Shown: positions 48,551 to 57,622 of the stretch, one piece after another
How the letters are laid out: each line of letters starts with the position of its first letter
How positions within the stretch are numbered: the first letter of the stretch is position 1
Assembly (NCBI RefSeq): GCF_001989615.1
Contig: NZ_CP019067.1
Coordinates: 1,426,001 to 1,490,000 of the forward strand
DNA length: 64,000 nucleotides
Direction: 5' to 3'
From: Halorientalis sp. IM1011
GTDB lineage: Archaea > Halobacteriota > Halobacteria > Halobacteriales > Haloarculaceae
Made by a program: the position numbers and the translations under genes
Notes under the pieces: generated by a model
The model's input: the letters and a program-made list of their open reading frames with translations, nothing else
Database searches by the model: none
What the model was told of the DNA's origin: nothing

Positions 48551-49003
48551 ATGTCCCACACAGCGGACCGGTCCGTTGACGCACAGGAGAGCATCTACGA
48601 GGAGTACGTCCTGAACGTCCGGATCGTCGAGATTGAGGACGAGGACGGGCGGCGTTACCACTTCGAGGCACCCGATCACTGCGGCAAGACGTTCGAGGAC
48701 CCGGAGATGGCGACGCTGTACGCCGACGTGTACTTCGACGTGAACGGCTTCGTCGAGTCGGAGACGGGCGAACGAGGTGTGCCGCCGAAGATCATCCCGG
48801 CGGGCCGGGACACGATGGTGGCGTACATGCGGACGCTCCCGGGCGCCAGCGAAGACTGGGTGAGCTGTTACTTCGCCGAGCGACCCGACAAGATCCAGCG
48901 GCTCATCAGGAACGTCCGGGCACGGGCCGAGAAGGTTCGCGAGGGAGCCGTCGAACAGGGCGTAGCCGACCGACACGACTCGCGTCGCAACGTCGAGAGG
49001 TAA
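48551..49003 (+). CDS. Conserved haloarchaeal hypothetical protein
   Basis: 150 residues, soluble. It has the phrases EEYVLNVRIVEIEDEDGRRYHFEAPDHCGKTFEDPEMATLYADVYFDVNGFVE and IPAGRDTMVAYMRTLPG, followed by a basic C-terminal helix (KIQRLIRNVRARAEKVREGAVEQG). The fold looks alpha/beta with two cysteines (near 45 and 105). No family named with confidence. A TTACTTAATC box is 30-35 bases upstream. Confidence 0.65.
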   Translation: MSHTADRSVDAQESIYEEYVLNVRIVEIEDEDGRRYHFEAPDHCGKTFEDPEMATLYADVYFDVNGFVESETGERGVPPKIIPAGRDTMVAYMRTLPGASEDWVSCYFAERPDKIQRLIRNVRARAEKVREGAVEQGVADRHDSRRNVER

Positions 49004-49216: not shown

Positions 49217-51871
49217 ATGGTGGATCTCAATCGGCGAAACCTGATGAAATCGTCAGTCGCTGCCGCACTGGGGGCCAGTGTGGTGGGAATTGCCGGCGGT
49301 TCGGAGACCGAAATCCCGGAGAGCGATACGTCCGGTGCACCGAGCGTCGTCGGCGATATCAAGCGCTTCTCCACGACGGCCTACGGTGCGGAGGTCACGG
49401 GCCCGTTCGTCTTCGAGAACGGCGGCCTGCTGTACAGCCTCCAGCACCCGAGCGGTGACAATCCGGAACCGTTCGACCGGGCCGGTGTCGGCTACTTCAG
49501 CGACTTCACCTTCGAGCTGGACGGGGACAACGACGACTTCGCGGAAGTCCCGGTCCCGACCACTGACGCGGAGCAGGGCCGCGTTCGCGCGGCCAACCAC
49601 GAGTACGTGTTGCTCGCTCAGGGCCGCGAACCGATCGACGGCGGGAGCGAACGGCTCGGCGTCGCCCAGACGCCCGACGGCACCGATATCTCGCTCGATA
49701 CCTTCGAAGGCACCCAGTACGGTGGTGCCGCGACCAACCCGGACTGTAACCAGTTCGTCCCCACGAACGACGCGGGCACCGAGGGGTATCTGTTCACCAA
49801 CTGGGAGAACAGCCCGGGGAACGTCAGCCGCATCCCGATCAGCATGACCGAGGACGGCGAGTGGGAGGCCGACCTGGAGAACGCGATCAACCTCGCCAAC
49901 ACGGAGCCCCTCCGAGAACTCGGCGGGACCCGGATCAACTGTTACGGCGATCTCAGCCCCTGGGACACGATGCTCTCCTCCGAGGAGAACTACGCACACC
50001 CGCGCGTCTCTCGTACCAACACGGTCGGCGACATCGTCGACGCCGGCTCCGGCGAGGGCATGATCGGCGGCTGCCAGTTCTGGAACCGACCGAACCCAAG
50101 CGACTGCACGGAGCACCTCGACTTCTCCCCACAGGGATACTGGGCGCTCAGCGGCGTCGAGTTCCTGGCGTACTACCTCGGTGCCGAGCGTGTCGACCAG
50201 GGCAGCGACTCCAACACGACCGAACCGATTTCGGACGTCTACCCGAACCCATACCGGTACGGCTACCACGTCGACGTCCGCGAGCCGACCGCCGACCCGC
50301 CCCAGCCGGTCAAGTACTACGTCATGGGCCGGGCCGCCTGGGAAGCCCCGAACATCCAGGCCGACCGGAAGACCGCCTACGGGCTCTCCGACGGCGACAG
50401 CAAGGGCATCTACAAGTTCGTCGCCGACGCGGAGATCGACGGCTACGACGACCCGATGGACGTCGAGGGTACGCTGTACGCGCCGAAGATCACGAACGAC
50501 GCGGCCTCAGCCGAGGACGCAGGCGTTCGCAACAACCCTGCCGAAACCGACCTCCTGATCGACTGGCTCCCGCTCGGGCACGCCAGCCAGCGCGAGTGCG
50601 AGCAGTGGATCGCCGAGTACGACGACGTGACCCAGGTCGACTATCTCGAAGCCCACACCGAACGCTGGAGCGAGGGCGACGAGGTCACCGACGAGGTGCT
50701 GGCCGAAGCCGACCAGTACGTCGTCGAGAACGGGAACCGGAACTACATCACCAACGAGGAGATCGTCGAGTGGGCCGAACAGTACGAGGAACACGGCTAC
50801 GACGGCGTCGACGAGGACCTCCGGAGAGTGCCGTTTCTGGAGACCCGAGCGGCCGCCAAGGAGATCGGAGCGTCCATCGAGTTCAACAAGGCCGAAGGCG
50901 TCGACAGCCGGGACGGTGCCGGCCCCGGTGAGTTCGTCTACTTCGGCATCTCGGAGTTCAACGACGCCCTGGCCGACGAGGAGGGCGACGTTCAGCTCGA
51001 CCGCATCGACGGCGGCATCATCTACCGCGGCGAACTGGAGCAGGATTACAACGTCTCCCGGCTCGAACCCGTCGTCGTCGGCCCCGACTTCGTCGCGAGC
51101 GATCGGCAGGCGGACGGCGACGACGGTGTGGCCAACATCGACAACGTCTACGTGATGGACGACGGTCGCGTCCTCTGCTGTGAGGACGGCTTCAAGTCGG
51201 GTCCCGCGAACTTCCCCAACGACGGGCTCTACGTCTATCAGCCGCCTGTCGACGTCGACGTCGAATCCCTCGCCATCGCCAGCGGCGGCTCCGGCGAGAC
51301 CGATCTCACTGTGTCCTCGCTCCCGAACGGCTTCTCGGGCGCACGGCTCACCGTCTCGACCAGCGACGACGGCGTCGCCGAGATCACGGGCGCGAGCTAC
51401 GACGACGCGCTCGGGATGACCGCCGAACCCGAGGTAGCCGGGGACGGCCAGTCGGTCGAACTCCGCGTCGCGGACCTCGACGGCGAGGTCCAGCCCGGCG
51501 CACAGAACGTCACGCTCGGCACGCTCGTACTCGAAGCGACCGGTACCGGCACCACCGATCTCGAAGTGTCCGTCCGCGACATGGACGACGAAGTCGGCAG
51601 CGAGATCGACGTGCAGGAACGCACGGGCGTCGTCGTCACCGGCCCACCCGCCATCGGCAGCGGTCCGGGCGGCACGGCCCCGACCGACCCCGACGGCGAC
51701 GGCCGCTACGAGGACGTCAACGGCAACGGTCGCATGGACTACGCCGACATCGAACTCCTGTTCGAGAACCTCGACGACGAGTCCGTGACGATGAACGTCG
51801 AAGCCTACGACTTCAACGAGAACGGCCAGATCGACTACGACGACGTGGTCGAACTGTACGAAGAGCAGTAA
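49217..51871 (+). CDS. Tat-exported PhoX-type phosphatase with cohesin-like and dockerin domains
   Basis: 884 residues. A twin-arginine signal (NRRNLMKSSVAAALGASVVGIAGG) is followed by a DUF839/PhoX catalytic region (about 40-670). Its motifs are TRINCYGDLSPWDTMLSSEE, YGYHVDVREP and MGRAAWEAPNIQADRKTAYG, as in calcium/iron alkaline phosphatases. A cohesin-like beta domain (about 677-808) and a linker come next. A dockerin of two calcium-loop repeats ends the protein (DVNGNGRMDYADIELLFENL and DFNENGQIDYDDVVELYEEQ). It probably works outside the cell, releasing phosphate. The start at 49217 gives the Tat signal, and AATATAAA (49175-49182) is the promoter. The next gene encodes a paralogous cohesin-like domain, 44 bases downstream. 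Confidence 0.85.
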   Translation: MVDLNRRNLMKSSVAAALGASVVGIAGGSETEIPESDTSGAPSVVGDIKRFSTTAYGAEVTGPFVFENGGLLYSLQHPSGDNPEPFDRAGVGYFSDFTFELDGDNDDFAEVPVPTTDAEQGRVRAANHEYVLLAQGREPIDGGSERLGVAQTPDGTDISLDTFEGTQYGGAATNPDCNQFVPTNDAGTEGYLFTNWENSPGNVSRIPISMTEDGEWEADLENAINLANTEPLRELGGTRINCYGDLSPWDTMLSSEENYAHPRVSRTNTVGDIVDAGSGEGMIGGCQFWNRPNPSDCTEHLDFSPQGYWALSGVEFLAYYLGAERVDQGSDSNTTEPISDVYPNPYRYGYHVDVREPTADPPQPVKYYVMGRAAWEAPNIQADRKTAYGLSDGDSKGIYKFVADAEIDGYDDPMDVEGTLYAPKITNDAASAEDAGVRNNPAETDLLIDWLPLGHASQRECEQWIAEYDDVTQVDYLEAHTERWSEGDEVTDEVLAEADQYVVENGNRNYITNEEIVEWAEQYEEHGYDGVDEDLRRVPFLETRAAAKEIGASIEFNKAEGVDSRDGAGPGEFVYFGISEFNDALADEEGDVQLDRIDGGIIYRGELEQDYNVSRLEPVVVGPDFVASDRQADGDDGVANIDNVYVMDDGRVLCCEDGFKSGPANFPNDGLYVYQPPVDVDVESLAIASGGSGETDLTVSSLPNGFSGARLTVSTSDDGVAEITGASYDDALGMTAEPEVAGDGQSVELRVADLDGEVQPGAQNVTLGTLVLEATGTGTTDLEVSVRDMDDEVGSEIDVQERTGVVVTGPPAIGSGPGGTAPTDPDGDGRYEDVNGNGRMDYADIELLFENLDDESVTMNVEAYDFNENGQIDYDDVVELYEEQ

Positions 51872-51915
51872 CGGTCCGGACCCGATTCCAGTCCCCCTCT
51901 CACGCCCGACAGACC

Positions 51916-52611
51916 ATGTCACGAACCCCTATCCGAACGGTCGCGGCCTTCACCCTCCTCGCCGGCCTGCTGCTGGTCGGCGGGGCCGGGACGGCGACGG
52001 CCGACGACGGCGCACAGCTGACCGTCACGAACGCAACGGTCGAGGAAGACGAGACGCGCACGCTCCGGCTCGCACTCTCCCGTGCCCCGGCCGGGCTGTC
52101 GGGCTACGAGGTGACCCTCGAACTCGCCGAGGACGGCGTCGCCGAAGTCCGCAACGCCAGCTATCCGGACGCGTTCCGGCTGACGACCGATCCGTCCGTC
52201 TCCGGCGACGGCCAGCGCGTGACCCTCGAAGCCGCCGTGACCGACACGCCCCCCGGCGCGACGAACGTCACGCTGGCGACCGTCGAGGTCGCGGGCACCG
52301 GCGGCGGGACCACCGCCGTCCGCGTCACCGACGCACAGGTCGACGCCGACAACGGAAGCCGGGTCGCACCGGCCTCCGATCCCGGATGGGTCGCCGTGGA
52401 ACCGCTGGCCAGCGACGGCGGTGCCGGCTCGGACGGCAGTGGCGGGGCCGACGGTGGCGGCTCGATCGGCGATACCGCCGGCGATCCGGCCGACGACCCC
52501 GGTTCGGGAGACTCCACCTCTCCGACCGGGACCGCCGGTCCCGGCTTCGGCGGGGTCGTCACACTCGTGGCCCTGCTGACCGTGGCGCTGCTGGTGCGCC
52601 GGCGGCGCTGA
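51916..52611 (+). CDS. Surface-anchored cohesin-like protein with PGF-CTERM
   Basis: 231 residues. A Sec signal (AAFTLLAGLLLVGGAGTATA) precedes one cohesin-like domain (about 30-155). It aligns well with residues 685-800 of the upstream phosphatase: DGVAEVRNASYPDAFRLTTD against DGVAEITGASYDDALGMTAE, then GDGQRVTLE and PGATNVTLATVEV. A Ser/Gly/Asp-rich linker (about 156-205) follows. The C-terminal tripartite signal is PGFG, a hydrophobic helix and RRRR, recognised by archaeosortase A, so the protein should be lipid-anchored to the cell surface. It is likely co-transcribed with the phosphatase and may receive its dockerin. Confidence 0.82.
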   Translation: MSRTPIRTVAAFTLLAGLLLVGGAGTATADDGAQLTVTNATVEEDETRTLRLALSRAPAGLSGYEVTLELAEDGVAEVRNASYPDAFRLTTDPSVSGDGQRVTLEAAVTDTPPGATNVTLATVEVAGTGGGTTAVRVTDAQVDADNGSRVAPASDPGWVAVEPLASDGGAGSDGSGGADGGGSIGDTAGDPADDPGSGDSTSPTGTAGPGFGGVVTLVALLTVALLVRRRR

Positions 52612-55720: not shown

Positions 55721-55834
55721 GCGTTGGGAACGCGCTGTGTGAGGGTTTCACACCTCACAGCAGCCGGTTCGGGAGCTGCATGCCGATGTGATCCGAGACA
55801 CGAGACTTATTCCGTTGACAGGACTGGTACCGAT

Positions 55835-57622
55835 ATGTTCCGCCGACTGGTCCTCGCGGGGGTGGTGGTAGTCTTGGGTGTCGGGGTGGCCGTTCAGCCT
55901 GCGGCCGCGATCCCACAGCAGACCGACAACGGAACCGCGTTCGAGGTGCGCGCGGCCAGCGACGAGATCCCGCTGGGCGGGAACGGGACGGAGTTGTACG
56001 TTTCAGGCCTGCCGGTGGGGACCCCGATCGAGATCACGGCGACTGGGATCGGATCGCCGACGCTGGGATCGATGATCGACGGCGACCCGACCGCAAACGG
56101 CGTCCGGACGACCGTACCGGCAAACGGCACGATCCCGGTGGCGAATCCGCCGATACTGGGATCCGGTGACTACGAGTTCACGGTCCAGCGCCTCGACACC
56201 GGTACGACGACGAGGGCTTCGATTACGGTGACCCACGAGGGCGGGTTTACCGCGGACTTCGCCCGAGACACGTACACGGGCACGCCCGAGAGCGTCGTCC
56301 CCGTCGATATCACGACGAACTACGACCGCGCGACGCTCCAGCTCGTCGACCCGAACTCCGACTACCGTGCGTCGGTGACCGTCGACGACGAAGACCGGAC
56401 CCACACGGTCTGGATCGACACGAGCGCGCCGACCAACGCGAGCGAACTATTCACCACGGAACTCGACGCCGAGGCGACCGACCGCAAGCGGACCGGGTAC
56501 CTGCCGGAACTGAACGGGACGTACAGACTCCGACTCGATCCACGGGTCTACGGGAACCGGAGCAACGCGGCGAACCTGACCATCTCGTCAGACGGACGGG
56601 CGCGGCCGACGGCGGACGAGGGGCAGATTTCGGCCGAGGCACTCTCGGACGAGTTCTCGACGAACGATCCGGGGAACTGGGCGTTCGTCCGGGTCGATGG
56701 CGTTCCCGACGGTGTCCCCGTCACCGCCGCCCTCAATAACCCACCGACCGGTTACTCGCAGGCGACGCTCGGGGCGATGCTCCGCGGCGAGCAGGTCGGT
56801 GACGACATCCGGACGATCCCCTACGAGAACGGGACGATCGAACTGTCAGCCATCCCCGCGATCCGGTGTCTGGGCGCGGACCTCTCGATCGAGGTCCAGC
56901 GTCTCGACACTGGTCAGACGGCGACGGCCGAGATCGCAACGACATACCACTCCTCGGTCACGGGCGTGATCCACCGAGAGAACTACACCGTCGCGTCCGG
57001 TAGCGTCCTGCCGATCACGCTCACGCGGGACTGCAACGAACTGACGCTCGAACTCACCCGGGTCGGATCGAACGCGTCCGCGTCGATAGGGCTCGCTGAC
57101 GACGCACCTATCGAACGCAACGAGACGCTCTGGCTCGACACGGCCGGGGCCGGGAACGCGAGCGGGCTGTTCCGATCCGCAGTCGGGACCGTGACTCGCA
57201 ACGCGACGACGAACTTCTCGGACGGCGCGCTCGCGCCCGGGACCTACCGGCTCCAGCTCACGTACGGCAGATACGAGCTGGATACCGCGACCCTCTCCGT
57301 GACGAACCAGTCGAGCGAGCAGTCGCCGTCGGGACCGATGCCTGATCCGCCCGAAACACCGCCCTCGACACCCAACACCATCGTGCCGCCGCCGGCGACC
57401 GACACGTCGACACCCGATCAAACCACGGGCGACCGAACCGTGACCGAACCCTCGTCCTCGAACCGCACCGCCGAGGGCAACGCACACCGGCCCGCCGGTA
57501 CCGAACCGTTCGGGACGACCGCTGCGACGACCGACGGCTCCGGCCCCGGGTTCGGTCCTGTCATAGCGGCACTGGCACTGGCGGCGCTCTCGATGCTCGC
57601 GGCTCGCAGAAACGACGACTGA
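55835..57622 (+). CDS. Secreted surface protein with two large repeats and PGF-CTERM
   Basis: 595 residues. Signal peptide (RRLVLAGVVVVLGVGVAVQPAAA) and two homologous regions of about 250 residues, each with VQRLDTG(T/Q), an acidic beta region and WIDTSAPTNASELF or WLDTAGAGNASGLF. A Pro/Thr/Ser linker and PGFGPVIAALALAALSMLAARR follow, an archaeosortase signal. At least ten N-x-S/T sequons suggest glycosylation. The repeats resemble the S-layer-like DUF7827 domains, which is a recollection rather than proof. The ATG at 55835 is 28 bases after a TTATT box. Probably a structural or adhesive surface protein. Confidence 0.78.
   Translation: MFRRLVLAGVVVVLGVGVAVQPAAAIPQQTDNGTAFEVRAASDEIPLGGNGTELYVSGLPVGTPIEITATGIGSPTLGSMIDGDPTANGVRTTVPANGTIPVANPPILGSGDYEFTVQRLDTGTTTRASITVTHEGGFTADFARDTYTGTPESVVPVDITTNYDRATLQLVDPNSDYRASVTVDDEDRTHTVWIDTSAPTNASELFTTELDAEATDRKRTGYLPELNGTYRLRLDPRVYGNRSNAANLTISSDGRARPTADEGQISAEALSDEFSTNDPGNWAFVRVDGVPDGVPVTAALNNPPTGYSQATLGAMLRGEQVGDDIRTIPYENGTIELSAIPAIRCLGADLSIEVQRLDTGQTATAEIATTYHSSVTGVIHRENYTVASGSVLPITLTRDCNELTLELTRVGSNASASIGLADDAPIERNETLWLDTAGAGNASGLFRSAVGTVTRNATTNFSDGALAPGTYRLQLTYGRYELDTATLSVTNQSSEQSPSGPMPDPPETPPSTPNTIVPPPATDTSTPDQTTGDRTVTEPSSSNRTAEGNAHRPAGTEPFGTTAATTDGSGPGFGPVIAALALAALSMLAARRNDD

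Follow-up and report, generated by a model that had tools for sequence, protein, structure and literature searches.

In the stretch of DNA analysed here (the window: 64,000 nucleotides of Halorientalis sp. IM1011, NZ_CP019067.1, positions 1,426,001 to 1,490,000), a gene for a PhoX-type phosphatase that ends in a cohesin-fold domain and a dockerin (49217–51871, plus strand, 884 residues) is followed after 44 bases by a gene for a small anchored protein with a single cohesin-fold domain (51916–52611, plus strand, 231 residues). We propose that the best explanation of this arrangement is that the phosphatase docks in trans on the cohesin of its anchored neighbour, a reading that gene content and sequence across the Halobacteriales make probable. 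Such docking had been raised in a sequence-only reading of the same DNA, whose coordinates, gap and reading frames were all recovered when the sequence was read again.

From its N-terminus, the PhoX protein consists of a twin-arginine (Tat) signal, the phosphatase domain, the cohesin-fold domain and, at the C-terminus, a two-loop dockerin. The phosphatase domain matches Pfam PF05787 at 71.4 bits (curated cut-off 24; residues 223–661), from which family match phosphatase function is predicted, and 113 of the 114 PhoX genes examined encode a twin-arginine motif; both results bear out the description of an exported PhoX-type phosphatase. The C-terminal dockerin scores above the PF00404 cut-off of 22.9 both in the whole protein (23.2 bits; residues 831–878) and as an isolated module (26.1), with both calcium loops readable in the sequence, each followed by a helix in a low-confidence model. 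The neighbour, described earlier as a PGF-CTERM protein with one cohesin-like domain, exceeds the cut-offs of both anchor families (NCBIfam TIGR04126, 35.7 bits against 24.5; Pfam PF18204, 30.3 against 18.8), and its C-terminus has the PGF motif, the hydrophobic helix and the basic tail.

That the two cohesin-like domains belong to a common subfamily, as had been claimed, agrees with BLASTP, which aligns them at 42% identity over 114 residues (E 4e-21) with the four motifs cited for their kinship included. Neither window protein matches the Pfam Cohesin model (PF00963), even at E 1; 5'-nucleotidase relatives with the same module reach at best 17 bits against a cut-off of 24.1, and a PDB sequence search with the neighbour-cohesin profile returned no cohesin, just chance methyltransferase matches. 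Structure prediction nevertheless gave the cohesin beta-sandwich for both domains (AlphaFold2; predicted local distance difference test, pLDDT, about 75–92), the neighbour's being modelled via an orthologous domain (L118), and among the Foldseek matches listed against the PDB (50 per model) all were cohesins for both models. VIA-align superposes the PhoX and neighbour domains on 6kgc_A with Z scores of 16.2 and 15.4, and on the non-cellulosomal cohesin 2xdh of Archaeoglobus fulgidus with 15.4 and 15.0, alignments (Z 15–16) that span 123–131 residues. In hhalign comparisons with 23 archaeal cohesins that the Pfam model detects, the probability was 94–98% along the whole domain (95% for the PhoX cohesin, 94% for the neighbour's), and 0.2% for a reversed control. 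Because the Pfam match is lacking, yet fold and hhalign agree on cohesin, both are, as judged by profile and model, divergent cohesin-fold domains that the standard Pfam model overlooks.

These two cohesins are the only ones found in the home genome, where the PhoX dockerin is the only dockerin detected; the possible partners of that dockerin are therefore the neighbour and PhoX itself. The one other Pfam-cohesin hint in this genome (L001; E 0.146) was rejected by the haloarchaeal model.

A search of 392 Halobacteriales genomes, followed by reading of the loci, gave 114 PhoX genes in 107 genomes, of which 81 genes in 76 genomes bear a dockerin. An anchored single-cohesin gene lies directly downstream on the same strand in 71 of these 76 genomes, with a median of 184 bases (range 98–330) between the PhoX stop and the neighbour's cohesin domain; no downstream cohesin gene accompanies any of the 32 intact PhoX genes without a dockerin (33 in all, with that of G285, cut by a contig end, left out). 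The pair is thus conserved in the Halobacteriales, and its recurrence in 71 sampled genomes means that the arrangement is not due to chance. A Fisher test of the association between dockerin and neighbour, on counts preceding the final correction, gave p 3e-23; since the genomes are not independent, a tree-based test weighs more. An IQ-TREE maximum-likelihood tree built from PhoX cores shows 8 changes of state for the dockerin and 9 for the neighbour, and across 7 independent contrasts the two change in the same direction in 6.5 on average and in opposite directions in 0 (median sign test p 0.016). One genome, G305, has lost both dockerin and neighbour and retains the PhoX cohesin, and the strong neighbour-type cohesins among the matches listed from the 392 genomes all adjoin a dockerin-bearing PhoX. 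Across relatives, the neighbouring proteins combine a Sec-like signal with a hydrophobic C-terminal segment. The PhoX of G025 (L016) has the same core and no cohesin-dockerin module, and ends instead in an acidic linker, a GPGLG motif and a hydrophobic segment, a tail that may be a cis version of the same anchoring and that we count in favour of docking.

The dockerin itself differs where the anchor is absent. Clostridial type I dockerins carry their recognition residues at loop positions 10–11. Position 10 of loop 1 is Tyr in all 76 scored paired dockerins, and Asp (four) or His (the fifth) in all five orphan dockerins, which have no neighbour cohesin gene; at position 10 of loop 2, Tyr or Phe is found in 75 of the 76 paired dockerins (one not parsed) and in all five orphans. 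In four of the five orphans, divergence has also outpaced what would be expected from the PhoX core (z −1.8 to −4.4), as scored with a profile trained on paired loci, of which the Tyr count is independent. Loss of the loop-1 Tyr when the anchor is absent suggests, and would fit, a docking role.

We propose that PhoX leaves the cell through Tat as a soluble protein and that its neighbour is exported by Sec and retained in the membrane or surface layer via its C-terminal PGF-CTERM segment. Once both are outside, the PhoX dockerin would plug into the neighbour's cohesin, an interaction that we infer to be calcium-dependent, and docking would keep the enzyme on the cell surface, where freed phosphate could be taken up. 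Docking of this kind would link an enzyme exported by Tat to an anchor exported by Sec.

A precedent exists, which the sequence-only reading had not noticed. According to PMC9705933 (citing Voronov-Goldman 2011), the AF2375 dockerin of A. fulgidus binds the AF2376 cohesin strongly and specifically, and the pair has been used for surface display. Like the window pair, AF2375/AF2376 combines an upstream gene with a cohesin and a C-terminal dockerin and a downstream gene with a signal peptide, a single cohesin and a PGF-type anchor. The two differ in cargo and in detectability: AF2375-like proteins have a WD40-like propeller where the haloarchaeal pair has PhoX, and cohesins of the AF2375/AF2376 type pass Pfam, whereas the haloarchaeal ones do not. 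Binding of a dockerin to a neighbour's cohesin is on record for A. fulgidus alone (PMC9705933). Four loci that we call Archaeoglobaceae-like, from their match with AF2375/AF2376, repeat the layout, with a propeller-cohesin-dockerin or other cohesin-dockerin gene that adjoins or overlaps one for a 174–192 residue signal peptide-cohesin-PGF protein. The A. fulgidus-type single-cohesin proteins of L171, L172, L175 and L177 have the PGF-type anchor at the end, and three of these four have a third small downstream gene with another dockerin-like repeat. Surface docking on the neighbour is accordingly the part of the sequence-only reading that genomics supports well, through co-occurrence, co-loss, Tyr loss in orphans and a bound A. 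fulgidus pair of identical layout.

With the clostridial cellulosome (type I) the pair shares the plug-and-socket logic, the cohesin fold and the two-loop dockerin, but it has no multi-cohesin scaffoldin and no polysaccharidase, and its catalyst bears both partners; in the home genome we found neither a multi-cohesin scaffoldin nor a dockerin-bearing polysaccharide-degrading enzyme. The dockerin and cohesin proteins of anaerobic methanotrophic (ANME) archaea (PMC9012536) are likewise exported, archaeal and without a link to cellulose, but those domains are reported mostly on transporter-binding proteins and multi-cohesin proteins, whereas in haloarchaea the unit consists of two genes in a constant arrangement, one of them for a phosphatase. 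The glycoside-hydrolase cohesins of Clostridium perfringens (2jh2, 2vo8, 2w1n) are also borne by enzymes and are among the best fold matches, but these are bacterial carbohydrate enzymes without an adjacent gene for a PGF-anchored cohesin. The pair appears to resemble AF2375/AF2376 and, more distantly, the cellulosomal cohesin-dockerin tether: a known type of connector with a phosphatase as cargo.

Several results weigh against docking on the neighbour. The dockerin is kept without a neighbour in five genomes; a PGF-type motif is present in just 35 of 68 neighbours, nearly all the others having a plain transmembrane segment and basic tail; and the losses of the loop-1 tyrosine amount to two to three independent events, so that they are suggestive rather than proof. 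An AlphaFold2 read-through chain of dockerin, spacer and neighbour cohesin gave no predicted complex (predicted template modelling score, pTM, 0.52), but its dockerin is too poorly modelled (pLDDT about 50) to speak for or against docking. Finally, dockerin distances follow the PhoX cohesin (partial r 0.68) slightly more closely than they follow the cohesin of the neighbour (0.59).

This last result bears on a different main job for the module, self-assembly, in which PhoX molecules form chains, each binding through its dockerin to the cohesin of another, and the anchored cohesin just tethers the chain end. Controlling for the neighbour leaves a correlation of 0.47 with the PhoX cohesin, and the reverse control leaves 0.22 with the neighbour's; a cohesin is also present on nearly all of the dockerin-bearing PhoX proteins examined, and in five genomes tandem PhoX-cohesin-dockerin genes are followed by a single shared anchor gene. 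The mirror-tree correlations nonetheless give no way to tell trans docking from self-association, the tracking may merely reflect the presence of both domains in one gene, and the dockerin decays without the neighbour even though the PhoX cohesin remains. We consider chain formation as the principal role unlikely, though self-association as such may occur. Less likely still is that the dockerin folds onto its own cohesin as a calcium-dependent lid or stabiliser, the neighbour being just a related paralogue: a linker of 9–22 residues (median 14) between the two domains and the movement of the module as a unit among several enzymes speak for this, but it does not require the joint gain and loss of neighbour and dockerin, and the model of the cohesin-linker-dockerin module has a good cohesin and no ordered dockerin (pTM 0.61; dockerin pLDDT about 40–57). 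That the module binds an environmental substrate, unrelated to docking, as stated for other haloarchaeal dockerin proteins (PMC10963439, PMC13260240), is very unlikely: those papers name no cohesin, and cohesin-fold genes missed by Pfam adjoin dockerin genes both at this locus and in several further pairs of genes.

Docking on an anchored cohesin may extend beyond PhoX, which had also gone unnoticed, as had the spread of the pair in the Halobacteriales. Among genomes with the PhoX pair, eight have the same cohesin-dockerin module on PhoD, three on 5'-nucleotidase and two on choice-of-anchor I proteins; Halorientalis sp. LUM.68 combines PhoX, PhoD and choice-of-anchor I modules. The nine genomes with such extra cargo (G004, G007, G032, G176, G208, G219, G274, G296, G382) all carry the PhoX-cohesin pair, compared with 71 among all 392, and the stretches read around the PhoD, 5'-nucleotidase and choice-of-anchor I module genes showed no cohesin gene. 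The extra-cargo dockerins tend to be closer to the PhoX dockerin of their own genome than to most PhoX dockerins from elsewhere (mean rank 0.76, Wilcoxon p 0.002, n=13; genome kinship not corrected). Together these observations suggest one anchored receptor common to several phosphorus-acquisition enzymes, their phosphorus role being predicted from family names. A tentative and bolder version is a shared, possibly chain-forming surface complex, in which the one PhoX-side anchored cohesin would take the dockerins of PhoX, PhoD, 5'-nucleotidase and choice-of-anchor I proteins and each enzyme's cohesin would take the next, giving mixed chains without a scaffoldin; we rate this as possible, with the odds against it. 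A staphylococcal nuclease (SNase) family with the module has its own adjacent cohesin gene: at L138:2091-6327, L139, L140, L141 and L142, an SNase and DUF4350 protein with a cohesin-dockerin C-terminus is directly followed by its own single-cohesin protein (about 305–340 residues).

Table 1. Features of the PhoX gene and its anchored neighbour in the window
Feature	Positions	Strand	Basis
Tat (twin-arginine) signal of PhoX, LNRRNLMKSS	49217..49306	+	Pfam TAT_signal 14.8 bits, under cut-off 22.7
PhoX-type phosphatase domain (approximate bounds)	49307..51232	+	PF05787
PhoX cohesin-fold domain, residues 675-811	51239..51649	+	AlphaFold2 model m173a81761466, fold Z scores, hhalign 95%
Dockerin, residues 822-884	51680..51868	+	PF00404
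Dockerin calcium loop 1, DVNGNGRMDYAD; Tyr842 = loop position 10 (51740-51742)	51713..51748	+	sequence
Dockerin calcium loop 2, DFNENGQIDYDD	51809..51844	+	sequence
Predicted Sec-type signal peptide of anchored cohesin protein, MSRTPIRTVAAFTLLAGLLLVGGAGTATADD	51916..52005	+	sequence
Neighbour cohesin-fold domain, residues 32-163	52009..52404	+	L118 ortholog model, fold Z scores, hhalign 94%
PGF-CTERM membrane/surface anchor	52525..52608	+	TIGR04126, PF18204

Two other genes lie nearby in the window. Upstream of PhoX, 48551–49003 encodes a 150-residue protein without a Pfam or NCBIfam match, homologues of which account for 75 open reading frames within short flanks of the 107 PhoX loci, whether or not the dockerin module is present. 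Further downstream, 55724–57622 encodes an exported protein of 632 residues that contains repeated domains and ends in a PGF-CTERM-like sequence (22.2 bits, just below the curated cut-off of 24.5).

Cohesins and dockerins also occur at further haloarchaeal loci. At L307:7608-16126 (G276, of the window's family), a single-cohesin protein with a C-terminal transmembrane segment is followed by a Tat-signal protein of 1040 residues that contains five cohesins and a dockerin, and next by GH5-fn3-cohesin-dockerin and GH5-dockerin proteins, with GH10-dockerin proteins elsewhere in G276; this is a possible haloarchaeal cellulosome operon, and an account of haloarchaeal cellulose use (PMC10267330) mentions neither cohesin nor dockerin. 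Scaffoldin-like proteins with 2–3 tandem cohesins and a dockerin occur at L143 (G090), L144 (G189), L151 (G387) and L170 (G013), and in G090, G189 and G387 the nearby dockerin-bearing proteins are malectin, plastocyanin, multicopper oxidase and sugar-isomerase-like. The cohesin proteins of L145 (G363), L146 (G208), L149 (G296) and L150 (G352) have their membrane helix at the N-terminus instead of the C-terminus, and those of G363 and G296 adjoin a dockerin-bearing protein. At L158 (G098) and L165 (G090), a BNR-repeat (PF14870-like) dockerin protein adjoins a cohesin protein that has a long stretch rich in Thr and Glu and an extra C-terminal domain.

Haloarchaeal dockerins have been reported before and read as substrate-binding modules (PMC10963439, PMC13260240), perhaps because their cohesin partners fall under the Pfam threshold; no haloarchaeal cohesin partner is described in the open-access literature that we searched. 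The PhoX pair would supply that missing partner, and it is of interest for how widely it occurs, for the cargo it carries and because the standard model fails to detect it. It offers a testable example, spread across a lineage, of a cohesin-dockerin connector that serves phosphorus instead of carbohydrate, for which a possible reason is that the connector lets an enzyme exported by Tat be attached, outside the cell, to a receptor that leaves by Sec and is anchored at its C-terminus. Should one anchor indeed serve several phosphorus enzymes, haloarchaea would have a new kind of nutrient-scavenging surface complex.

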